Shown here: positions 12,208-50,785 of the stretch, piece by piece | Layout: each line of letters starts with the position of its first letter | Position numbering within the stretch: the stretch's first letter is position 1 | Source: Thiohalospira halophila DSM 15071 | Lineage (GTDB): Bacteria > Pseudomonadota > Gammaproteobacteria > Thiohalospirales > Thiohalospiraceae | Direction: 5' to 3' | Assembly (NCBI RefSeq): GCF_900112605.1 | Contig: NZ_FOMJ01000009.1 | Location: 50,241-114,240 of the forward strand | DNA length: 64,000 nt | Translations under genes and position numbers: made by a program | The notes under the pieces: model-generated | The model's database searches: none | What the model was told of the DNA's origin: nothing | The model's input: only the letters and a program-made list of their open reading frames with translations

Positions 12208-12612
12208 GTGACGGACGACAACCCCTTCCAGATCCATCCGGAGGCGCGCCGTATCACCGTCGGCAGCGGCCTGGCGGTCAGCGATCACGCCCTCCGGGTG
12301 GAGCAGCCTCCGGTGATGCCGGCCTGGTATCTCCCCGCTGGCGAGGTGGATGGCCGCTTTCTGATCGCCACGAACCACTGCAGCTACATCCAGTGGGTAG
12401 GCGAAACCTGCTGGTTCGATCTCGTCGACGGTACCTCGAATGCCGCCTGGCTCCACCCGGATCCCTCACCGTTGCTGGCCGCCCTGGGTGACCGGATCGC
12501 CTTCGACCCCCACCGGGTCACCATCTACCTCGACGGAGAGCCGGCCCTCGCCTCGACGCGGTTCATGTCACCGGCGTCGCGGGGAATCGGGCCGATTCCG
12601 GCGCCTCGATGA
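12208..12612 (+). CDS. DUF427 domain protein
   Basis: The 134-residue protein matches the DUF427 pattern: a strand with AVSDHALRVEQPP, YLPAGEVDGRFL, the CxY-type core TNHCSYIQWVGETCWFDL, then NAAWLHPDPSP followed by a DRIAFDPHRVTIYLDG end. The family is small and soluble with no established reaction. It starts at GTG with an AGGGA-like ribosome site (CATCAGGGACGAATAGC) and is divergent from tmcA. The last 50 bp overlap the end of the convergent unknown gene at 12563. Confidence 0.72.
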   Translation: MTDDNPFQIHPEARRITVGSGLAVSDHALRVEQPPVMPAWYLPAGEVDGRFLIATNHCSYIQWVGETCWFDLVDGTSNAAWLHPDPSPLLAALGDRIAFDPHRVTIYLDGEPALASTRFMSPASRGIGPIPAPR

Positions 12613-13252
12613 TCAGGGCCACGCCCTCGGGGGCGATCTCGAAATGGCCGCGGGCCGAATCCCACGCCCGTTGCTGGACGTGGTCATCCGCCTCCACGAA
12701 GACCTCCTGCAGGGCTCGCCCCAGGGCGGGTCGGTCGGCGGGATCACGCCCCGTGTTCGCCCGGAAGGCGGTCCGCGCGGCCTCGTCGCCGGCCCAGCCC
12801 GCCCGGGCGAAGCCGGCCAGCAACAGCGTCCGCACCACCCCCGGTCCCAGTTCGTCCCGCAGGCGGGCCACCGCCTCCCTGGGAGACGGCTCGTCGGCGC
12901 TAGAGGCCGCCGCATCCTCCGGCAACAGGCGGCGCAGGGTCCGCGCACCGGCCAGGCCGTTCAGGAGGTCGTCATCCACCATGCGGACATAGTCCGGGGT
13001 GGGGTCCGAGCCGGTGCGCCGGGCCAGCTGGATGAGGGCGATGGCCTCGTCCACGTAGTCGGAGAGGGTGAGGCCGCAGAGGCGGTGGTCCAGGAGGTCG
13101 TGGATGAGGACCGAGGTGGGGATCACCTCCCCGGGATAGGGGGTGGCCGCGATGACCTCGGGGTCGGCCTCGGTGCCGTCGAGCTTCCAGCCCCGGGCGC
13201 CGAAGGCATCATCCCATTGCGCCCGGTAGTGCAGGCCGGCGGTGGTGGCCAT
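12563..13252 (-). CDS. Unknown soluble protein, probably controlled by the adjacent MerR-type site
   Basis: The 229-residue acidic protein is not recognised. It begins ATTAGLHYRAQWDDAFGARG and contains VLIHDLLDHRLCGL near residue 50, which has two histidines and a cysteine that could bind metal. The rest is mostly helical, with no signal peptide or membrane segment. AGGAGA precedes the ATG. A perfect palindrome lies 17 bp upstream of the start codon, beside a merR-family gene, which suggests regulated expression. The function is unknown. Confidence 0.65.
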   Translation of the reverse strand: MATTAGLHYRAQWDDAFGARGWKLDGTEADPEVIAATPYPGEVIPTSVLIHDLLDHRLCGLTLSDYVDEAIALIQLARRTGSDPTPDYVRMVDDDLLNGLAGARTLRRLLPEDAAASSADEPSPREAVARLRDELGPGVVRTLLLAGFARAGWAGDEAARTAFRANTGRDPADRPALGRALQEVFVEADDHVQQRAWDSARGHFEIAPEGVALIIEAPESARFPATPVT

Positions 13253-13269
13253 GGCGGTCTCTCCTGATC

Positions 13270-13289
13270 ATCTTACGTCCACGTAAGAT
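13270..13289. promoter_or_regulatory. Perfect 20-bp palindrome, likely MerR-family operator
   Basis: ATCTTACGT and ACGTAAGAT are exact inverted 9-mers separated by two bases. The core TTACGT-N2-ACGTAA resembles operators of MerR-family metabolic regulators such as LiuR (established knowledge). It sits between the merR-family gene and the unknown gene at 13252. A weak promoter reading left (TTGCGT, 17-bp gap, TAGATC) would place it just downstream of the -10. The symmetry is seen; the regulator assignment is inference. Confidence 0.6.
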
Positions 13290-13324
13290 CTAGACGAGAC
13301 GGCGCCGCTACGCAAGCGCCGGCC

Positions 13325-13807
13325 TCAGCCCTTCCCCTCCTCGCCCCAGAGGAGAGCAGCCAGCGGCACCCGGGGGGCCAGCCGGCGGACGGGGCAGTCG
13401 GGGCAGCCCTCGGCGGTCGGGGGACGTCGGCACTCCGCGCAGGTGGCCAACGCCGGGCCCAGCTCGTCCAGGGCGCTGCGGGTGCGCGCCACCACCTCGT
13501 CCACCTCGTCCAGACGCGCCGCCAGCCGGTCCAGCTCGGCCCGAGCGGCGGCGGTGGCGGCGGCCCCGGTGTCGGCCTCCGAGCGGGCCCCGGCCAGGGC
13601 CCGGAGGCGATCCAGCTCCACCCCCGCCCGGGTCAGCCGCACCAGGAAGGCCGCCCGGCGCTGCGCCGCCGGCCCGTAGCGCCGGGTGCCGCCCGGGGAG
13701 CGGCTGGGGGTCAGCAGCCCCTCCTCCTCGTAGAAGCGCAGGGTGCGCGGGGTGGTCTCCAGCCATTCGGCCAGGGCCCCGATGCTCAGGGTCTCCTCCT
13801 CAGCCAC
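13325..13807 (-). CDS. MerR-family transcriptional regulator with C-terminal cysteine cluster
   Basis: The 160-residue protein starts with a MerR winged helix (LSIGALAEWLETTPRTLRFY, then EEGLLTPSRSPGGTRRYG). A dimerisation coiled coil follows. The C-terminus carries four cysteines as C-X2-C-X9-C-X2-C (ATCAECRR...GCPDCPVRR), a plausible zinc or redox site. The GTG start at 13807 was chosen because AGGAGG sits six bases upstream and GTGGCTGA overlaps the preceding stop by 8 bp. An ATG five codons earlier overlaps that ribosome site. Its likely operator is the palindrome at 13270. Confidence 0.8.
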   Translation of the reverse strand: MAEEETLSIGALAEWLETTPRTLRFYEEEGLLTPSRSPGGTRRYGPAAQRRAAFLVRLTRAGVELDRLRALAGARSEADTGAAATAAARAELDRLAARLDEVDEVVARTRSALDELGPALATCAECRRPPTAEGCPDCPVRRLAPRVPLAALLWGEEGKG

Positions 13808-14270
13808 GGTCCGCCTCCTCATGCAGCCGTTGCAGGCCGCGGCGCATGCGGCGAGTATGGCTGCCCTCCCAATAGAGCCGGTCGCAGGTCGGGCACCAGC
13901 GCAGGGGGCCGGCGACATCCGCGGGCGCCCGGGCGGCCACGGCCTCCGGCGGGGTCTCCAGGGGGGTGTTGCAGAGCAGGCAGCGGGTGAAGGGGGCGTG
14001 GTACCAGTCGAGGCCCAGGCGGTCGGCCAGCTCCGCCGCGGCCGCCTCCGGCCGCTCCTGTTCCAGCAGGATCAGGCAGGGCCCGGCAGCGGCGTGCTCG
14101 GCGATCCCGGCGTCCCGGGTCACCAGCCACCGGTCCTCGGCACAGGCGCGGGCGACGACCTCCCGATCCGGGGCGCCGTCGGTGGCGATGGCGGTGTCGT
14201 AGCCCGCCGCCCGGAGCCAGCGGGCGAGCCCCTTGTACATCTCGTCACAGAGGAAGCGGTGGGCGGCCAT
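13800..14270 (-). CDS. Mut7-C RNase-domain protein (DUF82) with zinc ribbon
   Basis: The 156-residue protein begins RFLCDEMYKGLARWLRAAGYD, the PIN-like Mut7-C start with its acidic residue. It continues with WLVTRDAG, then a four-cysteine zinc ribbon (CLLCNTPL and RWCPTCDRLYW) near the C-terminus. The family is predicted to be an RNase by relation to PIN domains; substrates are unknown. It is coupled to the downstream merR-family gene by an 8-bp overlap. The start at 14270 was chosen by homology to the family start; no strong ribosome site is visible. Confidence 0.78.
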   Translation of the reverse strand: MAAHRFLCDEMYKGLARWLRAAGYDTAIATDGAPDREVVARACAEDRWLVTRDAGIAEHAAAGPCLILLEQERPEAAAAELADRLGLDWYHAPFTRCLLCNTPLETPPEAVAARAPADVAGPLRWCPTCDRLYWEGSHTRRMRRGLQRLHEEADRG

Positions 14271-27708: not shown

Positions 27709-27842
27709 GTTCGATCCTCGATGGCTCGGGTTGCGTGGGTTGCTCGGCCCGGGAAACGCGGGGCGTGGCCCGGCCGGTCACCTGCACGGGATGACCTGCC
27801 GTTGCTAGAATGCCGGTTCCACTCGCGCAAGGGGAAGGGAAC

Positions 27843-29192
27843 ATGGCCGACCACTACGACCTCATCGCCATCGGCGCCGGCAGCGGCGGGCTCTCCGTGG
27901 CCGAACGCGCCGCCGCCCACGGCGCCCGGGTCGCCATCGTCGAGGAGGGCGCCCTGGGGGGGACCTGCGTCAACGTCGGCTGCGTCCCCAAGAAGGTCAT
28001 GTGGTACGCCGCCGGCGTGGCGGAGACCCTCCACGACGCCGCCGGCTACGGCTTCACCCTGGACGGCTGGCGCTTCGACTGGGCGACCCTGAAGGCCGCC
28101 CGGGAGAAGCTCATCGAGGGGATCACCGGCTTCTACGGCAACTGGATGGCCGACAACCACATCGACCACCTCCAGGGCCACGCCCGCTTCGTGGACGCCA
28201 AGACGGTGGACGTCGGCGGCACCCACTACACCGCCGACCACATCGCCGTCTGCCCCGGCGGCGAGCCCATGGTCCCCGACGTCCCCGGCGCGGAGCTCGG
28301 CATCACCTCCGACGGCTTCTTCGAGCTGGAGAGCCTGCCCCACAACGTCGCCGTGGTCGGCGGCGGCTACATCGGCGTGGAGCTGGCCGGCGTCCTGAAT
28401 GCCCTGGGCTGTCACGTCCGCCTGATCCTGCGCAAGGACCGGCTGCTGCCCACCTTCGACTCCCTCATCCGCGAGGGGCTCATGGAGGCGATGGCCGATG
28501 CCGGGATCACCGTCGTCCCCCAGGCGCCGGTGCAGGGGCTGGCGCAGGATGACGAGGGCCGCCTGCGCCTGGATTGCGCCGACGGCATGTGCTTCCACGG
28601 CCTGGACAAGGTGATCTGGGCCACCGGCCGCCGGCCGCGCACCGCCGAGCTGGAGCCGGAGAAGGCCGGCCTGAAGCCCGATCCCGCCGGCTTCCTGCGC
28701 ACCGACGACTACCAGGAGACCGGCGTCCCCGGGATCTACGCGGTGGGGGACGTAACCGGCCGGCCGCCGCTGACCCCGGTGGCCATCGCCGCCGGCCGCC
28801 GCCTGGGCGACCGCCTCTTCGGCAACCAGCCCGACCGCCACCTGGACTACCAGAACATCCCGACGGTGGTCTTCAGCCATCCGCCGGCGGGCACCGTGGG
28901 GCTCACCGAGGGGCAGGCGCGGGAGATCCACGGCGACGCCGTGCGGATCTACCAGACCCGCTTCACCGCCCTCTACCACAGCTTCACCGACCGCAACGAG
29001 AAGACCGCCATGAAGCTGGTCTGCGTGGGCAATAACGAGCGCATCGTCGGCTGCCACATGATGGGCATGGGGGTGGACGAGATGCTTCAGGGCTTCGCGG
29101 TGGCCATCCGCATGGGCGCCACCAAGCGCGACTTCGACGACACCGTGGCGCTGCACCCCACCAGCGCCGAGGAGCTGGTTACCCTCCGCTGA
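27843..29192 (+). CDS. gor: Glutathione-disulfide reductase
   Basis: The 449-residue flavoprotein has an N-terminal FAD motif ([17 protein letters not shown]), the redox-active disulfide [16 protein letters not shown] characteristic of glutathione reductase, a second Rossmann motif ([15 protein letters not shown]) and the C-terminal catalytic HPTSAEE. It uses NADPH to reduce oxidised glutathione. The start at 27843 follows AAGGGGAAGGGAAC. Its end overlaps aroE (convergent) by 14 bp. Confidence 0.93.
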
Positions 29193-30036
29193 TCAGCTCC
29201 TGGCGCAGGGTCGCCAGCACGGCGGCGGCGTCCGGGCGCACCCCGCGCCAGATCCGGAAGGACTCCGCCGCCTGGCCCACCAGCATGCCCAGCCCGTCGG
29301 CCAGCTCCGCCGCCCCCCGGGCGGCCGCCCAGCCCAGGAAGGCGGTGGGCTCCGCCCCGTACATCATGTCGTAGACCCGGGTCTGCTCGCCGATGGCCTC
29401 GGCGGGCAGGTCCGGCACCTCCGCGGCCAGGCTGGCGGCGGTGGCGTTGATGATGATGTCGAAGGGCCCCTGGGCGGCGGCCAGCCCGCCGCCCTCCACC
29501 AGCCCCAGGTGGCGGAAGTGGTCCGCCAGCTCCCGCGCCCGGTCCGGGGTGCGATTGACCACCAGCAGCCGCGCCGGCCCCGCCTCCAGCAGCGGGGCGA
29601 TGACCCCGCGGGCCGCCCCGCCGGCCCCCACCAGCAGGATGGAGGCCCCCGCCAGGGGCCAGCCCAGGTTCTCTGTGAGGTCGGCGACCAGGCCGGCGCC
29701 GTCGGTGTTGTCGGCGATGAGGCGGCCGTCGGCCAGCGTCAGGGTATTCACCGCCCCGGCGAGGCGGGCCCGGTCGCTCAGCTCGTCGGCCAGGGCGTAG
29801 GCGCGCTCCTTCAGGGGGACGGTGATGTTGGCCCCGCGCCCGCCGGAGGCGCCGAAGTTGCCCAGGGCCTGGGCGAGGCCACCCTGGTCCACCTGGATGG
29901 CCTCGTAGGTCAGGGCCTGGCCGGTCTGCTCGGCGAAGAGGGTATGGATCCGGGGGGAGAGGCTGTGGTCGATGGGATCCCCCATCACGGCGTAGCGATC
30001 CGGGTCGGGGCGGAAGTCGAAGGGGTCCTGGCTCAT
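29179..30036 (-). CDS. aroE: Shikimate dehydrogenase
   Basis: The 285-residue enzyme shows the AroE start [17 protein letters not shown], the catalytic lysine motif [20 protein letters not shown], the NADP motif [16 protein letters not shown] and the end region [15 protein letters not shown]. It reduces 3-dehydroshikimate with NADPH in aromatic amino-acid synthesis. The ATG at 30036 precedes the conserved start by about 16 residues; an upstream ATG at 30114 would add a low-complexity lead. Confidence 0.93.
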
Positions 30037-30144
30037 GGTCTCATCCGGTCGTTGCCTGGGGCCCGCGGGGCGGGCGGATGGGGCCAGTCTGCCACCGCCG
30101 GGCGGCGGGGCCAATCGGGTCCTCGTTCGGGCCAGCAGGGGTGC

Positions 30145-30193
30145 TTGACACGGGGGCGGGGCGCGGCAATACTAAATGCAAATCGTTGTCATT
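30145..30193 (+). promoter_or_regulatory. bfd promoter with Fur-box-like site
   Basis: TTGACA (30145-30150) and AATACT (30168-30173) are 17 bp apart, a good sigma-70 promoter. AATGCAAATCGTTGTCATT (30175-30193) matches the Fur consensus TGATAAT-C-ATTATCA at 10 of 14 arm positions and covers the start point. Fur with iron would block the promoter, fitting bfd control in other bacteria. Confidence 0.65.
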
Positions 30194-30208
30194 CGTGAGG
30201 GCACCCCG

Positions 30209-30409
30209 ATGTACGTCTGCCTCTGCCAGGGAGTTACCGACAAGCAGATCCACGCCGAAGTGGAGCGTGGCGCCGACACCTGGAAGGAGGTTCGCGAGAA
30301 CCTCGGGGTGGCCAAGCAGTGCGGCCGCTGCGGCCAGTGCGCCAAGGGCATCGTGCGCGAGGCGGTGGCCGAGAAGCACGCGGTTGCAACCCTCCCCCTG
30401 GCCGTCTAG
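30209..30409 (+). CDS. bfd: Bacterioferritin-associated ferredoxin
   Basis: The 66-residue protein has the BFD-like 2Fe-2S site with C4, C6, C38 and C41 ([10 protein letters not shown] and CGRCGQC). Bfd docks on bacterioferritin and feeds electrons to release stored iron when iron is scarce. The start at 30209 gives the canonical MYVCLC; an in-frame ATG at 30176 lies inside the Fur-box-like site. The bfr gene follows 54 bp downstream on the same strand. Confidence 0.92.
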
Positions 30410-30463
30410 CCTGAATCCCGTTCCCGCGCCAACCCGGCGCAAAGGCAGTCAGGAGATCCCCGC

Positions 30464-30931
30464 ATGAAGGGCGACAGCAAGGTCCTCGAGCACCTCAACC
30501 GCATCCTCACCAACGAGCTCACCGCCATCAACCAGTACTTCCTCCACGCGCGGATGTACCGCAACTGGGGGCTGGAGGCGCTCAACGAGAAGGAATACGG
30601 CGAGTCCATCGACGAGATGAAGCACGCCGACCAGCTCATCGAGCGGATCCTCTTCCTGGAGGGCGTGCCCAATCTGCAGGACCTGGGCAAGCTCATGATC
30701 GGCGAGGAGACCGAGGAGATGCTGCGCTGCGACCTCCGCCTGGAGGAGAAGGCGGTCCCCGACCTGCGCGCGGCCATCGCCCACTGCGAGTCCGTGGAGG
30801 ACTACGTCAGCCGCGACATCCTCACCTCCATCCTGGAGAGCGAGGAGGAGCACATCGACTGGCTGGAGACCCAGCTGGACCTCATCAAGAAGCTGGGCAA
30901 GGAGAACTACCTCCAGTCCCAGGCCGGCTGA
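30464..30931 (+). CDS. bfr: Bacterioferritin
   Basis: The 155-residue four-helix protein has the ferroxidase ligands E18, E51 and H54 ([13 protein letters not shown]), with E94, E127 and H130 in the second half, and M52, the haem-b ligand between subunits. This haem-binding set marks true bacterioferritin rather than ferritin. It forms a 24-mer storing ferric iron. AGGAGA precedes the ATG. It follows bfd, so the store and its iron-release partner are encoded together. Confidence 0.95.
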
Positions 30932-30934
30932 GGG

Positions 30935-32359
<1,425 letters not shown>

Positions 32360-33457
32360 ATGGACATTTACCGAGAATTCATCCACTTGGCTCGGCTCGC
32401 TGCTTCGGGAAGGCAGGGAGACATACGGACCTTGCTTCGGCGGGCAGCTCGTTCCGCGGACAAAGAACGCCCCGATTTCCAAGATCAGCTAAAAAGTCTG
32501 CTACAGCGCCTCCCAGAATCTGAAGGGCAGCAGCCTTATCGACGCGTTCCTCCTGACTCGAAAACCAGCCCTCAACCTGAGATGGATTCTTTGCTCCTCG
32601 AAGACTCTGCAGCGGTTGCAGAACCGACGTGGGGGCCCAACCTCAAAGGAGAACTGGATGAGATAATTGCGGAACGTGCCAAGATCGACGATCTACGTGC
32701 AGCTGGCGTTCACCCCACGCGCTCTGTTTTGTTTGTTGGGCCACCGGGTGTCGGCAAAACAATGGCCGCTCGATGGCTCGCCAAAAATACAAACCGGAAG
32801 CTCTACACGGTCGATCTAGCATCCATCATGAGTAGTTACCTCGGTCGCAGTGGGGCCAACCTGCAGAAAATCCTCTCAGCGGCCGCGAACGACACAAATG
32901 TACTATTCATCGACGAATTTGACTCGGTGGCCAAACGGCGTGGGGACGAGAGTGATATCGGCGAATCAAAGCGCCTTGTCAACGTTCTGCTGCAGTCGCT
33001 GGATAACTGGCCAGAATCGGGTCTTCTTTTGGGCGCGACCAACCACCCCGAGCTGCTAGACCGCGCTATTTGGCGCCGTTTTGACAGGGTGCTCGAATTC
33101 CCTATGCCGACCCGGGACGAGATCGTCATGTTCACGTCCAGCAAGCTGAAACTCTCAGGTTTCAAGCCGTCAAATGAAATGAGTGGTATCATCGCCGTGG
33201 GGCTAGAAGGGAGGTCTTTTGCCGACGTTGAGAACTGGCTCAATGAAGCCATACGATCGTCGATCGTCCGCGATACTCCCTTGGATACCATCCTTGCTAA
33301 GAAGGTTGCATGCCTGTTTACTAGTCAGCCGGTGTCCGAACGAGCCAAAGTCGCGACCACTCTCACTATGCTTGGCATAAGCCAAAGAGCAGCAGCAAGT
33401 CTTCTAGACCTTTCCAGAGACACCATCCGGAAATATGCAAAAACTGGCAGGGAGTGA
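32360..33457 (+). CDS. AAA+ ATPase of a two-gene AAA/S8-peptidase module
   Basis: The 365-residue protein has a helical N-terminus (1-50), a linker, and one AAA+ core: Walker A GPPGVGKT (127-134), Walker B VLFIDEFD (D185-E186), sensor-1 N228 (GATNHP) and candidate arginine fingers R239/R240 (IWRRFDR). The sequence SYLGRSGANL fits an FtsH/Spastin-like pore region. The C-terminus (about 326-362, RAKVATTLTMLGISQRAAAS then LLDLSRDTIRKYAK) looks like a helix-turn-helix. An in-frame TAG directly precedes the ATG, fixing the start; the ribosome site is weak. The peptidase gene starts 2 bp after the stop. A regulator or substrate feeder for the peptidase is inferred. Codon use is more AT-rich than neighbours. 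Confidence 0.85.
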   Translation: MDIYREFIHLARLAASGRQGDIRTLLRRAARSADKERPDFQDQLKSLLQRLPESEGQQPYRRVPPDSKTSPQPEMDSLLLEDSAAVAEPTWGPNLKGELDEIIAERAKIDDLRAAGVHPTRSVLFVGPPGVGKTMAARWLAKNTNRKLYTVDLASIMSSYLGRSGANLQKILSAAANDTNVLFIDEFDSVAKRRGDESDIGESKRLVNVLLQSLDNWPESGLLLGATNHPELLDRAIWRRFDRVLEFPMPTRDEIVMFTSSKLKLSGFKPSNEMSGIIAVGLEGRSFADVENWLNEAIRSSIVRDTPLDTILAKKVACLFTSQPVSERAKVATTLTMLGISQRAAASLLDLSRDTIRKYAKTGRE

Positions 33458-33459
33458 CT

Positions 33460-35697
33460 ATGCAAGGGAAAAAATTTCTGTTAGGGCGAGGCGAACGGCT
33501 CACAGACCAAGTCCAGGTCTCTCGAGGCGGTGGCACCAAAAATCCCCCTTATGACCTCGAAACGGCCCTCCAACGCATAGCTAACCAAGTCGAAGAAGCT
33601 GGTTCATACGCAGCCCAATTACCCGATGCGGCATGCCCCGACGACCGCGTCGTTGCTGCTATGACTATGCATCCTCGCTACATTTCCAAGAGCGACTTCC
33701 CAGTCGACCTCTGCCGAGAGGTAGGTTTAGAGCCGGTAGGGGGAAAATCCACCTACGTTACGCCCGAACAATGGGGCGTAAATACACACCCAGATAGCGC
33801 CCTCGCAGACACTTGGTACGTGTCGACCACGAGATCTGCTTTGCGTGCGTGGAGCGATAACCTTGCTCCTATGGAATTGACCCCTTGGGATGAAGGCGAG
33901 CAGGCGACTATCCAGTTGCAAAGCTTAGAATCCTTCGGCGTTCCGCGAGCCTCAGAAAAGATCAAGCCGGGTACGGAGAGCGCTTCATCTCATACCTATG
34001 AGGTCGTTCTCCATAGCGAACGCCATACTGAAGTCCTTGAGGCCTTTTTCGAATATGCCAATTTATTACAGGTTGATTTTTGGGTCAGCCAAGTTCGTTA
34101 TGTTGGCGGTATAATATTCGTCCCTCTCGAAGCTGACAAAAAACAGCTTGAAGAGATCTCGAAATTCGCATTCCTACGAGCTATCAGGCCAATGCCTGCG
34201 CTCAGGACATTCAGGCCCCCAATGCTCCGGGGCGATCTCACTCCTATACCAGAGCTCCCAGAGGAGGAAGTAAAAGACGAAGAAACCCGTGTGGCTGTTT
34301 TCGACGGAGGACTACCTCATGGCTCACCGCTCACGAAATGGGTGCAATCGATTGAACCACCAGGGATCGGCGCGGCTATTCCTGATGCCTTAGCTCACGG
34401 TGAGCAAGTTACATCAGCAGTCCTATTTGGCCATGTCACGCCAAACCGAAAACTTCAGGCTCCTTACTCGCGCATTGATCACGTTCGGGTAATCGATGAT
34501 CAGATCAATTCTGATATCGGCCTGTACCGGCTTTTGGACCGCATCTTGGAGCATCTCGACTCCGCGACCGAAAAATATCGATTCGTAAACCTAAGCTTAG
34601 GCCCCGATGTGCCGATCGAAGATGATGAAATTGATCGCTGGACGGCTGAGCTAGATGCGCGTGCAATCGGCGGAGACACTCTCTTCTCAGTGGCAGCAGG
34701 GAATACCGGTGATAGAGACTCGTTATCGCACCTAAACCGTATTCAACCTCCTTCAGATGGGGTCAATGTCCTAGCCGTAGGCGCGTGTGATGCCATCTAT
34801 GATGATGTCTGGTCTCGGTGTGATTATAGTTCCGTCGGTCCCGGGCGAACGCCGGGAATCGCCAAGCCGGATGGAGTGTCGTTCGGCGGCTCGTTTGAGC
34901 GACCTTTCGGGACGATAGCATCCGGATCAGGGGTGGGGCTAAGCGCCACACAGGGGACCAGCTTTGCTGCGCCGTTCGCATTACATACAGCCCTCGGGGT
35001 GAATGCTTTACTTGAACGAGCGATCAGTCCGCTCGGAGTCAGAGCACTCTTTGTGCATAAAGCTGATCAGGCTGAACTTCCTCCTGAAGAAGTTGGATGG
35101 GGACGATTTGAGTCCGACCCGATCACACTGCTCGAATGCGCTGATAACGAAGTTACCGTCCTCTACGAAGGAATGCTCCCTTTGAAGGAATACCTCAGGG
35201 CTCCAATACCAATCCCTACGACTGGATTGGAAGGCATGGTAGAAATAACTGCTACACTCGTGATTGCACCGGAAATAGACGCAGCTTTCACCCATGCATA
35301 CACGCGCGGTGGATTGCAAGCTGTTTTTCGACCTAATTCCAATAAATCGCAGGGAAATTCGCCAACATCACCCGCAGGGAGCGAGGATTTCTTTAGTTCT
35401 AAGCGGCTTTATAAAAGAGCAGAATACGAGCTCCGACAAGATGGTCACAAGTGGGAACCATGTTGGAAAGCATCTCGTCGAAAGCAAGGAAGTAAGCTAC
35501 ACAACCCTTGTTTTGACGTCTACTATCATACGCGTAACGAGGGGCGTAACGACCAAGATCCGGAGCCAATTCCCTACTCCCTTGTCGTAACGGTCCATTC
35601 GCCCCGGGTGAAAGACCTTTACGAGAAAACCCTGCACGCTTACTCGGACGTCCTCGTGCCACTAGAACCACAGGTGGAAATTCGCACGCAGCTATGA
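33460..35697 (+). CDS. Subtilisin-like S8 peptidase of the AAA/S8 module
   Basis: The 745-residue protein has an N-terminal region of about 270 residues without recognised domains, then an S8 fold with all catalytic residues: D282 (AVFDGG), H313 (AHGEQV), oxyanion N415 (VAAGNTGD) and S501 (GTSFAAP). About 230 residues follow the catalytic serine, including a beta-rich part and a basic Lys/Arg stretch. There is no signal peptide or membrane segment, so it should act in the cytoplasm, unlike most subtilases. The start is ATG 33460, with GGGAG seven bases upstream; a GTG at 33454 overlaps the ATPase stop but is too close to that site. Coupling to the ATPase is tight. Confidence 0.88.
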   Translation: MQGKKFLLGRGERLTDQVQVSRGGGTKNPPYDLETALQRIANQVEEAGSYAAQLPDAACPDDRVVAAMTMHPRYISKSDFPVDLCREVGLEPVGGKSTYVTPEQWGVNTHPDSALADTWYVSTTRSALRAWSDNLAPMELTPWDEGEQATIQLQSLESFGVPRASEKIKPGTESASSHTYEVVLHSERHTEVLEAFFEYANLLQVDFWVSQVRYVGGIIFVPLEADKKQLEEISKFAFLRAIRPMPALRTFRPPMLRGDLTPIPELPEEEVKDEETRVAVFDGGLPHGSPLTKWVQSIEPPGIGAAIPDALAHGEQVTSAVLFGHVTPNRKLQAPYSRIDHVRVIDDQINSDIGLYRLLDRILEHLDSATEKYRFVNLSLGPDVPIEDDEIDRWTAELDARAIGGDTLFSVAAGNTGDRDSLSHLNRIQPPSDGVNVLAVGACDAIYDDVWSRCDYSSVGPGRTPGIAKPDGVSFGGSFERPFGTIASGSGVGLSATQGTSFAAPFALHTALGVNALLERAISPLGVRALFVHKADQAELPPEEVGWGRFESDPITLLECADNEVTVLYEGMLPLKEYLRAPIPIPTTGLEGMVEITATLVIAPEIDAAFTHAYTRGGLQAVFRPNSNKSQGNSPTSPAGSEDFFSSKRLYKRAEYELRQDGHKWEPCWKASRRKQGSKLHNPCFDVYYHTRNEGRNDQDPEPIPYSLVVTVHSPRVKDLYEKTLHAYSDVLVPLEPQVEIRTQL

Positions 35698-35750
35698 TGC
35701 TGGTGCTCAGTGGCAGACTACCGAGGCTGGTAGTATCGCCGTCGCGCGCT

Positions 35751-35772
35751 GGAGGGGCGACCAATCCCCTCC
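35751..35772 (+). terminator. Hairpin after the S8 gene (possible weak terminator)
   Basis: GGAGGGG (35751-35757) and CCCCTCC (35766-35772) form a 7-bp stem with an 8-nt loop, 54 bp after the peptidase stop. No T tract follows, so termination would be inefficient or Rho-assisted. Confidence 0.3.
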
Positions 35773-35802
35773 ACAAGATTGGGGCCCGATCCCCGGACCG
35801 AG

Positions 35803-35831
35803 TGGTCAGGACTCCATTAGTGGACTATCAT
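35803..35831 (+). promoter_or_regulatory. Candidate mlaC promoter
   Basis: TGGTCA (35803-35808) and TATCAT (35826-35831) are exactly 17 bp apart. The predicted start lies near 35838, which rules out the ATG at 35830 as the mlaC start and supports the GTG at 35863. Confidence 0.5.
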
Positions 35832-35862
35832 GGATGGTCCACATCCTCATCGGAGAAGATCC

Positions 35863-36522
35863 GTGTCTCTCAAGCGCCTCTTTGCCCTCGGCCTGCTGCT
35901 GCCCGCTCTGTGGCTGGCTTCGCCGGCCGTAGCCGAGCCGCGGCCGGCGCACGAGACCCTGCAGGAGGCCACGGATGAGCTCCTCAACCGCCTGGAGGCG
36001 GAGGAGAACCAGCTCCGCGAGGACAAGGATGCGCTGCGGGAGCTGGTGGACGAGCAGCTGGTGCCGCTCATCGACTTCGAGGTGGCGTCGCGCTGGGTGC
36101 TGGGCCGCTACTGGCGGGATCTCGATGCCGAGCAGCAGGCGACCTTCCAGAAGGAGTTCCAGCGGATGCTCATCCGCTTCTACGCGGATGCGCTGCTGGA
36201 GTTCGATGCCTGGGATCTGCGCTATGACGAGATGCGCCGGGACGGGCCGGACAAGCCCTTCGCGTCGGTCCGCGCCCAGGCGGTGCCGGACGAGGGCAAG
36301 CCCATCGATGTGCGCTTCCGGCTGATCCTGCGCCACGGGGAGTGGCGGATCTTCGATGTCTCCATCGCCGGGGTCTCGGCGGTGAAGAACTACCGCTCCA
36401 CCTTCAGCCAGGTCCTGGCGAACAACGACTTCCCCACCCTGGTGGAGCGCATGCGGAACATGGACGCCGAGGACGACCCGGTGATGAAGGCCACCTCCGG
36501 CGAGGGCGAGCAGGAGGAGTGA
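35863..36522 (+). CDS. mlaC: MlaC-type periplasmic phospholipid-binding protein
   Basis: The 219-residue protein has a signal peptide (SLKRLFALGLLLPALWLA, then PAVA) and the Tol-Tol-Ttg2/MlaC fold, with LVDEQLVPLIDFEVASRWVL, YWRDLDAEQQATFQKEF, YADALLEFD and WRIFDVSIAGVSAVKNYRS. MlaC shuttles phospholipids between the outer membrane and the MlaFEDB complex. The GTG start has GGAG at suitable distance and lies downstream of the predicted promoter. No mlaF, mlaE, mlaD or mlaB is present nearby, so it is separated from the usual operon. Its end is 3 bp from the convergent 97-residue gene. Confidence 0.88.
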   Translation: MSLKRLFALGLLLPALWLASPAVAEPRPAHETLQEATDELLNRLEAEENQLREDKDALRELVDEQLVPLIDFEVASRWVLGRYWRDLDAEQQATFQKEFQRMLIRFYADALLEFDAWDLRYDEMRRDGPDKPFASVRAQAVPDEGKPIDVRFRLILRHGEWRIFDVSIAGVSAVKNYRSTFSQVLANNDFPTLVERMRNMDAEDDPVMKATSGEGEQEE

Positions 36523-36525
36523 GCC

Positions 36526-36815
36526 TCAGCCCTCGCGGCGGGTGAGCAGCGGCAGCTCGTGGCGGCGGGCGTTGGCGGCCAGAAAGGTCCCGCGCCCGCC
36601 GGCCTCGGCATCCAGCCGCTCCTTGCACTCCGAGGGCTCGCCCAGGATGGTGGCGAACAGGACCTCCAGCTCGCAGGGCTCCACCTTCACCCGGCCGAAG
36701 GGGGTCCCTTCCCCCGGCGTCCAGAACAGGTTGGGCGCCCAGCCCTTGGCCCGGATCCCCGGGCGCTGATACCAGTCGACCAGCTTCGCCTCCACGGCCG
36801 TCCTATCCGGCCCGC

Positions 36816-36819
<4 letters not shown>
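36526..36819 (-). CDS. Unknown 97-residue protein translationally coupled to uvrA
   Basis: The small soluble protein ([20 protein letters not shown] ... [20 protein letters not shown]) has two cysteines and a basic C-terminus ([14 protein letters not shown]). No family is recognised. Its ATG overlaps the uvrA stop in an ATGA junction, so it is translated with UvrA, hinting at a DNA-repair-linked role, which is inference. Confidence 0.65.
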
Positions 36820-39656
<2,837 letters not shown>

Positions 39657-39688
39657 GGTCCAAATTCCCGAAAAAAGGGCAACCTGCT

Positions 39689-39718
39689 AATATACGTCGC
39701 TCTTGCCGGAACAGGCAA
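39689..39718 (-). promoter_or_regulatory. Candidate uvrA promoter
   Basis: On the minus strand TTGCCT and TATATT are 18 bp apart, 33 bp upstream of the uvrA start. The -35 lies in a small inverted repeat (TTGCC/GGCAA, 39703-39718). No LexA palindrome of the CTG-N10-CAG type overlaps it. Confidence 0.5.
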
Positions 39719-39786
39719 AGACTCGTCGCCGCCTCCCCGTTCGCGGCCGAATTCCGTCCTGACCCCACTCTAGTACAGGGAGCCCC

Positions 39787-41145
39787 ATGAACCGGCTCGA
39801 GCGCCGCGCCACCAGCGCCCTCGCCACCATCTACGCCCTGCGCATGCTGGGGCTGTTCCTGATCCTCCCGGTCTTCGCCCTCTACGCCGAGGGGCTGGCG
39901 GGGACGACGCCGGTCCTGGTGGGCGTGGCCATCGGGATCTACGGCCTCACCCAGGCGGCGCTGCAGATCCCCTTCGGCATGGTCTCCGACCACATCGGCC
40001 GCAAGCCGGTGATCCTCTTCGGCCTGGCGCTCTTCGCCGCCGGCTCCGGGGTCGCCGCCGAGGCGGAGACCATCCACGGCGTCATCGCCGGCCGGGCGCT
40101 GCAGGGGGCGGGCGCCATCGCCGCCGCCGTGCTGGCGCTGGCCGCCGACCTCACCCGGGAGGAGAGCCGCCTGCGCGCCATGGCGATCATCGGGATCACC
40201 ATCGGCGTCGCCTTCTCCGCCTCCCTGGTGCTGGGGCCGCTGCTGGACCGCTGGATGGGGGTGCCGGGGCTGTTCTGGCTCACCGCCGTGCTGGGCGTGG
40301 CCGGCATGGGGGTGGTGATCTTCGGCGTCCCGACCGAGAGGGGCCACCGCGTCCACCGCGACGCCGAGGCGGTGCCGGGGCAGTTCGCCCGCGTCCTGCG
40401 CGACCCGGAGCTGCTGCGGCTCGACGCCGGGATCTTCCTCCTTCACCTGGGGCTGACGGCCACCTTCGTCGCCCTGCCCCTGGTCCTGCGCGACCAGCTC
40501 GAGCTGGCGCCGGTCCACCACGGCTGGCTCTACCTGCCGGTGATGGTCGTCGCCTTCGTGGCCATGGTCCCCTTCATTATTGTCGCCGAGAAGCATCGGC
40601 GCATGCGGGGCGTCTTCCTGGGCGCCATCGCCGCCGTGGCGCTGGCCGCCGCCGGCCTGGGGCTGGCCGGGCAGGCGGGCACCCTGGCCGGGGTGGCGAT
40701 GGCCCTGCTGGTCTACTTCACCGCCTTCAACCTGCTGGAGGCGAGCCTGCCCTCGCTCATCGCCAAGGCGGCCCCGGCCGGTGCCAAGGGCACCGCCATG
40801 GGGGTCTACTCCAGCGCCCAGTTCCTGGGCGCCTTCACCGGCGGCGTCGCCGGCGGCTGGGCCCACGGCGTCGCCGGTGCGGAGGGGGTCTTCGGCCTCA
40901 TCAGCGGGGCCGCCGCCCTGTGGTGGCTCATCGCCCGGGGCATGGCGCCGCCGCGCTACCTCTCCAGCCACGTGGTCGCCGTCCCCGCCGATGCCGACCC
41001 GGCGATCCTGACCCCGCGCCTGGCCGCCGTGGCCGGCGTGGTCGAGGTGGAGGTGGTCCCCGAGGAGGAGGCCGCCTACCTCAAGGTGGAGCTGGACCGC
41101 CTGGACCGCGAGGGCCTGGAGGCCGCGGCCACGGCCGCCCCCTGA
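39787..41145 (+). CDS. MFS transporter, YajR-like, with C-terminal domain
   Basis: The 452-residue protein has twelve hydrophobic helices with MFS motif A after helix 2 ([13 protein letters not shown]). A soluble C-terminal domain of about 70 residues ([20 protein letters not shown] then [17 protein letters not shown]) resembles the ferredoxin-like YAM domain of YajR. It is a drug/proton antiporter-like exporter of unknown substrate. GGGAG precedes the ATG. It sits between divergent uvrA and ssb, which are adjacent in many relatives. Confidence 0.85.
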
Positions 41146-49864: not shown

Positions 49865-50785
49865 ATGTCCATGGCCGATCGTGATGGCGTGATCTGGTAC
49901 GACGGCGAGCTGGTGCCGTGGCGCGATGCCACCACCCACGTCCTCACCCACACCCTCCACTACGGCATGGGGGTCTTCGAGGGCGAGCGCGCCTACGCCG
50001 CCGACGGCGGTACGGCCATCTTCCGCCTGGCCGACCACACCGACCGGCTCTTCCGTTCCGCGCACATCATGGGCATGCCCATGCCCTACGATCGGGAGAC
50101 CATCAACGAGGCCACCCGCCAGGCGGTGCGCGAGAACGGGCTGGAGAGCGCCTACATTCGCCCCATGGCCTTCTACGGCTCCGAGGGCATGGGGCTGCGC
50201 GCCACCAACCTCCAGGTCCACGTCATCATCGCCGCCTGGGGCTGGGGCGCCTACCTGGGCGAAGAGGGCATGGAGCGCGGGATCCGCGTGCGCACCTCCT
50301 CCCACAGCCGACACCACGTGAACTCCTCCATGTGCAAGGCCAAGGCCAACGGCAACTACATCAACTCCATGCTGGCCCTGCAGGAGGCGGTGAGCTGCGG
50401 TTACGACGAGGCCCTGCTGCTGGATACCGAGGGCTTCGTGGCCGAGGGCTCCGGCGAGAACCTCTTCGTGGTCCGCAACGGCGTGCTCTACACCCCGGAG
50501 CTCACCGCCGCCCTGGAGGGGATCACCCGGGAGACCATCGTCCACCTGGCGGAAGAGGCCGGGATCCCGGTGCGCGAGAAGCGCATGACCCGGGACGAGG
50601 TCTACGTCGCCGACGAGGCCTTCTTCACCGGTACCGCCGCCGAGGTGACCCCCGTCCGCGAGCTGGATGGCCGGACCATCGGCGCCGGTCGGCGCGGCCC
50701 CATCACCGAGCAGCTCCAGACCATGTACTTCGAGCTGGTCCACGGCCGGCGCGAGCCGCACCACGACTGGCTCGACCGGGTCTGA
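49865..50785 (+). CDS. ilvE: Branched-chain amino-acid aminotransferase
   Basis: The 306-residue class IV PLP enzyme contains HTLHYGMGVFEGERAY, the RPMAFYGSEGMGL segment, the PLP lysine K160 in CKAKANGNYINS, and SGENLFVVRNG. It makes valine, leucine and isoleucine from their keto acids. AAGGAGAA precedes the first ATG; a second ATG two codons in is also possible. gmhB follows after one base. Confidence 0.92.
   Translation: MSMADRDGVIWYDGELVPWRDATTHVLTHTLHYGMGVFEGERAYAADGGTAIFRLADHTDRLFRSAHIMGMPMPYDRETINEATRQAVRENGLESAYIRPMAFYGSEGMGLRATNLQVHVIIAAWGWGAYLGEEGMERGIRVRTSSHSRHHVNSSMCKAKANGNYINSMLALQEAVSCGYDEALLLDTEGFVAEGSGENLFVVRNGVLYTPELTAALEGITRETIVHLAEEAGIPVREKRMTRDEVYVADEAFFTGTAAEVTPVRELDGRTIGAGRRGPITEQLQTMYFELVHGRREPHHDWLDRV

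Follow-up and report, generated by a model that had tools for sequence, protein, structure and literature searches.

We analyzed a 64,000-nt stretch of Thiohalospira halophila DSM 15071 (positions 50,241 to 114,240 of contig NZ_FOMJ01000009.1; hereafter the window), in which two adjacent genes, ietA and ietS, encode an AAA+ ATPase and a subtilisin-like peptidase of the S8 family. An earlier note on this DNA, made by a model from its letters, had placed an AAA+ gene and, 2 bp further on, an S8 peptidase gene between hemB and mlaC. A check of the open reading frames (ORFs) returned both at the same coordinates, on the same strand with the ATPase gene first and a gap of 2 bp (Table 1). The ietS start is the ATG at 33460 (745 aa), with GGGAG just 5' of it by direct reading; an in-frame GTG at 33454, which overlaps the ietA stop codon, would give 747 aa.

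The earlier note had asked for a search of defense-system models, and both proteins matched them. In PADLOC, PDLC02196 and three other IetA models matched the first protein, and the IetS model PDLC02197 matched the second (residues 16-727 against profile positions 17-730 of 749). The best NCBIfam matches were "anti-phage ATPase IteA" for the first protein (187 bits, cut-off 510) and "anti-phage peptidase IteS" for the second (123.8 bits, cut-off 900). The pair showed an IetA match, a near-full IetS match, the gene order and strand, and the intact serine protease and Walker residues that define IetAS in the broad, PADLOC sense. However, it missed the NCBI equivalog cut-offs, whereas the IteS proteins of Acidovorax and Dongshaea reached 1058 and 1002 bits. 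Therefore, the sequence comparisons provide good support for the pair being IetAS broadly, an already named family, rather than the NCBI equivalog or an undescribed system. Chance ORFs were rejected because of the family matches and the conservation. The earlier note's proposal of a self-contained, regulated and plausibly abortive anti-phage pair agrees with this family; the pair is not new, and relatives have been described as a toxin-antitoxin (TA) or element-stability module (PMC8562856, PMC5006074, PMC6755753; the papers cited by PMC number are represented here by parts of their text). The note had also allowed for a named system with a different role: the system is indeed named, and its role overlaps without contradiction.

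We then placed the pair within the family. Maximum-likelihood analysis of 39 IetS proteins grouped the window protein with P0001 (84% identical; support 100/99) and P0003 (100/100); in this tree, two NCBI-labelled IteS proteins sat together across a long branch, the exact place of which is not firm, as long rows were placed unsurely. Against the closest PADLOC IetS model, seven proteins on the window side scored 109-180 bits (window, 162) and the two IteS proteins 980 and 937. Members of the window's branch were about 31-84% identical to the window pair, and the curated NCBI IteA/IteS about 25%. The window and five other scanned branch members fell below the NCBI IteS cut-off, and plasmid records of the branch, when annotated, mostly read just "S8 family peptidase". 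That is, there is a naming gap, in which members on the window side score under the NCBI cut-off and mostly carry a generic peptidase label.

Table 1. Features of the ietAS pair and of the region upstream of it, in window positions
Feature	Position	Strand	Basis
hemB-ietA intergenic region, low GC (0.548)	31946..32359	+	one promoter-like match, 32274-32302; match number near chance
ietA, AAA+ ATPase, 365 aa, IetA-type	32360..33457	+	ORF; PADLOC IetA 1.6e-66; Pfam AAA 5.1e-32
IetA N-terminal three-helix domain, residues 3-50, predicted	32366..32509	+	model m9ac1a5e9c7c7: helices 3-16, 19-36, 38-50
IetA AAA+ core and lid, residues 93-322, predicted	32636..33325	+	fold like Vps4, PAN, FtsH
Walker A GPPGVGKT, residues 127-134	32738..32761	+	G127, G130, G132, K133 in 120/120 rows
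Putative pore loop 1, YLG, residues 160-162, aromatic-hydrophobic-Gly	32837..32845	+	alignment
IetA C-terminal helix-turn-helix, residues 325-364, predicted	33332..33451	+	model helices 325-337, 342-349, 353-364
ietS, S8 (subtilisin-like) peptidase without export signal, 745 aa, IetS-type	33460..35697	+	ORF; PADLOC IetS 3.6e-48; Pfam Peptidase_S8 4.4e-16
IetS N-terminal domain, residues 1-165, HPRYISKSDFP motif at 71-81	33460..33954	+	H71, P72, R73, W105, G106 in 120/120 rows
IetS propeptide-like domain, residues about 176-250, directly before the catalytic domain, predicted	33985..34209	+	
S8 catalytic domain, residues 262-559	34243..35136	+	fold; invariant catalytic residues
IetS catalytic residues D282, H313, N415, S501	34303-34305; 34396-34398; 34702-34704; 34960-34962	+	invariant in 120/120 rows
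IetS C-terminal beta-rich domain, residues 560-745, predicted	35137..35694	+	model

The pair differed from its surroundings in composition, as the earlier note had said. The GC content per 500 bp was 0.48-0.56 over 32000-35499 and 0.64-0.75 outside, with 0.61 in the edge interval 35500-35999; at third codon positions (GC3) it was 0.57 in ietA and 0.49 in ietS, against 0.90-0.98 in seven flanking genes. Among the neighbors, bacterioferritin, porphobilinogen synthase (HemB), AroE, glutathione reductase and UvrA exceeded their curated cut-offs, and MlaC was assigned at 79.6 bits, under its cut-off of 195; the position between hemB and mlaC held. We compared this site in genomes of the same family; no other genome of the window's genus was among those searched. 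Seven genomes besides the window's had a hemB match; contigs of six (L016-L021) were compared, and in the seventh hemB lay at a contig edge. The tRNA uridine hydroxylase gene trhP adjoined hemB in all six contigs, with mlaC on its far side in four, and the TrhP copy of L019 exceeded the curated cut-off; in two contigs of other families (L022 and L023), trhP was not beside hemB. The window's genome had no match to the TrhP model NF011996. That scan gave matches in 13 of 20 genomes (nine above the cut-off) and in 8 of 14 controls (one above it), which supplied the positive control missing from a first TrhP protein search of the window's genome. The absence is not unique to the window, as six other genomes of the 20 were also without a match. 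Thus, ietAS holds the slot (31946-35829) occupied by trhP in its kin; a replacement of trhP may have taken one event or two. The earlier note's remark that the hemB and mlaC promoters appear undisturbed found no support: promoter-like sites in the locus scan were near chance (4 against a shuffle mean of 2.5, sd 1.9), and the site differs from that of kin.

The distribution of ietS was sparse. Among 95 genomes including the window's, matches at E ≤ 0.001 were limited to that genome's copy and one N-terminal fragment. In a set of 369 genomes of the class, again with the window's, its copy was the only full-length match at E ≤ 1e-20, beside two fragments. A pattern-limited scan of species genomes found two further full-length pairs, in a gammaproteobacterial metagenome-assembled genome and in Onishia taeanensis. 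When 37 genomes, the window's among them, were scanned with the PADLOC IetS model, 14 gave matches; 6 of the 14 controls also matched, and most of these matches were partial ones to the S8 domain. One genome of the same family has an 84.5-bit partial match in an 849-residue open frame (L058, G008:C65:2441-3799); this could be a remote IetS or some other S8 protein. On mobile elements, at E ≤ 1e-5, IetS matched 38 plasmid records (72,556 searched; 25 with at least 80% coverage) and 11 phage records (50,697 searched; 8 with at least 80% coverage). Of the 25 plasmid records with near-full matches, 23 were compared, and in every one of them IetA immediately preceded IetS on the same strand; of the remaining two, Acidovorax has an adjacent iteA, and the stretch in a Klebsiella record bears no annotation for either gene. 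At 13 loci, the window included, this order and strand also held, and gaps at the ietA-ietS junction ranged from -32 to +30. The IetA search was less specific: it matched 604 plasmid records at E ≤ 1e-20, whereas the IetS search matched 38 at E ≤ 1e-5. In two plasmids, H13 (CP000475.1) and H19 (NZ_CP077309.1), the ietS match is split in two, and transposase genes are annotated beneath it. In Pseudomonas phage PfAC08 (OR818368.1; L039, 216-3526), the record's notes swap the names, calling the ATPase IetS and the peptidase IetA. We consider it likely that the pair was gained by horizontal transfer; it is a real, intact and probably horizontally acquired member of a known family, with its scanned branch members below the curated NCBI cut-offs.

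We viewed 13 window-side plasmid contexts among the 25 near-full records; there was no control set, and no enrichment is claimed. Multiubiquitin and ThiF-family genes lay within 6 kb of ietAS in four of them, all alphaproteobacterial plasmids (L040, L046, L051 and L061), where the set is accompanied by helix-turn-helix and ImmA/IrrE genes and stands on either side of ietAS. In one context the pair sat amid prophage genes, between lysis and terminase genes, and in another near a caspase-family gene. On the viral contig L052 the pair adjoins phage-type ORFs; the ORFs after it (12383-13832) we take, by their motifs, to encode a nucleotidyltransferase (CD-NTase)-like protein of the cyclic oligonucleotide-based antiphage signaling type and a SLATT-like membrane protein.

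Conservation was assessed in alignments of 120 rows, each consisting of the window protein and 119 of the best 120 matches out of 1144 (IetS) or 2620 (IetA); candidates were picked by shared five-residue words, and one shortened record of the window's own contig was dropped from each. In the protein database, the records of this contig start late (P0122, 288 of 365 aa; P0002, 618 of 745 aa), and the N-terminal domains are thereby lost from both. In IetS, the catalytic residues that the earlier note had named were intact and invariant. The protein has no hydrophobic N-terminus: its 19-residue hydropathy maximum in the first 60 residues was -0.09, against 1.96 for the signal-bearing MlaC, in line with the note's view that it is not secreted, and a secreted subtilisin was rejected for this reason. 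A PDB search with the single IetS sequence gave no match, and a search with the IetS alignment found subtilisin-type proteases only. In structure comparison, KP-43 and SubHal aligned with the IetS model across 270-712; the N-terminal region had no match, which says nothing on its novelty. The "KS..P" core of the N-terminal motif is also present, by eye, in the two NCBI-labelled IteS proteins.

In IetA, K133 (the Walker lysine), D185 and E186 (Walker B), N228, R239 and R240 were invariant. Residues 160-162 are taken as pore loop 1 from the order of AAA motifs; position 160 is F or Y in 111 of 120 rows, and L161 and G162 are present in all. The closest folds to the IetA model were translocating ATPases such as Vps4, PAN, Rpt and FtsH; the N-terminal helices had no match in this comparison, which is silent on novelty. 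The 19-residue hydropathy maximum within the first 60 residues was 0.19. At the C-terminus, R343, R353 and T355 occurred in 120/120 rows; the invariance of R353 and T355 is limited to this set, as the Methylovirgula IetA has SRDAIRT and more distant IetA proteins differ. Pfam HTH_23 matched 62 of 120 rows at E ≤ 0.01, and the window's own IetA matched no Pfam helix-turn-helix family up to E = 0.1. The presumed recognition helix varies between branches by eye; its eight columns were chosen after the alignment had been seen, and the entire C-terminus (323-365) averages just 0.53. In PMC5006074, the term helix-turn-helix occurs zero times, which is weak evidence.

Upstream of ietA, no operator or palindrome was shared over the 13 loci, and no 9-mer was common to more than three. 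The best palindrome of the window (6-bp arms) was inside the shuffle range, and that of PfAC08 (10-bp arms) exceeded the shuffle maximum of 8. This comparison speaks neither for nor against autoregulation through the IetA helix-turn-helix. The locus scan found no terminator-like sites (shuffle mean 3.3), and no direct repeats around the pair were convincing. No RNA family matched between 31800 and 36000, and there were no tRNA genes in the window.

As an anti-phage system, IetAS is usually credited to a screen, reportedly that of Gao 2020. Published relatives behave as a poison and its restraint. Without SgiA, SgiT poisoned E. coli in less than 30 minutes, and SgiA was protective (PMC5006074). 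In syn3A, knockout of the ATPase was lethal and knockout of the pair viable (PMC6755753), and in mycoplasma a pair of AAA-ATPase and subtilisin-like protease behaved alike and was confirmed as a TA (PMC8562856). In addition, ietAS was named among the systems that phage core replication machinery activates (PMC10732053) and stands in a table row on functional phage proteins in phage escape (PMC10286901); its mechanism was called unknown (PMC9958689, PMC11878078). We consider it reasonably probable, by analogy, that in an IetAS-type operon the ATPase restrains an otherwise poisonous cytoplasmic protease and that interference by a replicating phage releases it, because this fits both the behavior of the relatives and the anatomy of the pair. 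An IetA ring would grip IetS, and ATP turnover would keep IetS inactive or propeptide-inhibited; IetA may hold the propeptide-like domain in place, and its predicted pore loop would be suited to gripping a substrate. If phage interference led to loss or diversion of IetA, IetS would be freed to cut host (or phage) proteins, and the cell would be arrested before phage release. Toxicity of the protease alone, neutralization by the ATPase and triggering by phage replication proteins are the steps drawn from published relatives.

Several points weigh against this proposal. SgiAT expressed from its own promoter gave no post-segregational killing (PMC5006074), and in Salmonella the SOS response did not induce that promoter (PMC9927553). 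In P. aeruginosa, the link between IetAS and resistance was correlative, with no lysogens of the phage concerned obtained (PMC11878078). The experimentally tested pairs are likened to the window pair by description, not by sequence, and the type II TA and anti-phage roles given to it would be transferred from relatives, family models and papers. A wide gap separates the window's branch from the curated equivalogs (124 vs 900 bits for IteS and 187 vs 510 for IteA), so that function is transferred over about 25% identity to labelled proteins. With each protein modelled singly, contact between IetA and IetS is putative, as is the placing of the propeptide-like domain with respect to S501. Finally, the earlier note had looked to nearby defense genes, and the PADLOC scan of the seven flanking genes (27810-41145) found no credible one; UvrA alone gave matches ("mad" and other models), taken as an ATPase cross-match.

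The same restrained protease could instead serve as a maintenance (addiction) module, which is kept since gene loss frees a longer-lived protease and which does not truly protect its host against phages. Homologues on plasmids, the isolation of the pair among the housekeeping genes scanned, the SGI1 pair (PMC5006074) and the Ti plasmid pair, a stability/incompatibility system (cited in PMC8562856), are in its favor. However, the window pair is not plasmid-borne, as housekeeping genes flank it on its contig; phages or prophages carry some of the relatives, and ietAS is listed as anti-phage with a phage-replication trigger (PMC10732053). We regard this as unlikely. Quite unlikely is a version of restraint in which IetA reads DNA: docking of its C-terminal helix-turn-helix on nucleic acid or a phage-made replication structure, not antitoxin turnover, would free the subtilisin. 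In that case, the window's branch of IetAS would amount to a protease switch that senses DNA and is gated by an AAA+ protein.

The pore loop, aromatic in 111 of 120 rows, and the translocating ATPases among the closest folds would also suit an ATP-dependent protease machine, in which IetA unfolds substrates and feeds them to IetS (cf. HslU/HslV, or FtsH in one chain), the ATPase activating rather than restraining. However, subtilisins have open active sites and no sequestered chambers. Moreover, removal of the ATPase in relatives frees toxicity instead of abolishing it (PMC6755753, PMC5006074), and we find such a machine very unlikely. A housekeeping regulated protease of the lineage, with homologues as fixed neighbors, as its place between two conserved genes might suggest and the earlier note had considered, was rejected as wholly improbable on distribution: the full-length match is single among the 369 class genomes, trhP fills the slot in six same-family contigs, homologues lie on plasmids and phages, and GC3 is unlike that of the flanks.

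A named family whose mechanism has been called unknown thus gains a predicted domain map, with a propeptide-like domain in the protease and an aromatic pore loop and a DNA-binding-type fold in the ATPase. These three predicted parts and the trhP-slot site are what the present analysis adds; the helix-turn-helix and the propeptide-like domain are the parts of chief interest.

Among known systems, the window pair has the order and the same two enzymes of IetAS (PADLOC IetA/IetS; NCBIfam IteA/IteS, NF042959/NF042956), the type pair of which is ietA/ietS of pTiC58 (Yamamoto 2009, known here as a citation). The near-full span of the IetS profile match indicates that the N-terminal, S8 and C-terminal regions are all common to the window protein. 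It differs from NCBI IteA/IteS in scoring under the cut-offs, in lying across a long branch from labelled IteS and, by eye, in the recognition helix. SgiAT of Salmonella Genomic Island 1 likewise has an AAA-ATPase antitoxin gene followed by a subtilisin-type toxin gene in one operon and is a functional TA in E. coli; SgiA and SgiT are 50% and 36% identical to IetA and IetS of pTiC58 (PMC5006074). SgiAT, likened to the window pair by description, is on a mobilizable island. The mycoplasma pair TA132/133 resembles the window in having a 353-aa ATPase upstream of a 757-aa S8 protease, with loss of the ATPase lethal and loss of the pair viable (PMC8562856, PMC6755753); it belongs to another host and is also compared by description. 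What sets IetS apart from pro-subtilisins with an N-propeptide and a C-terminal beta domain (ProN-Tk-SP, 3afg; KP-43, 1wmd) is its additional N-terminal region of ~165 residues, together with the lack of an export signal and the presence of a gene for a cognate ATPase.

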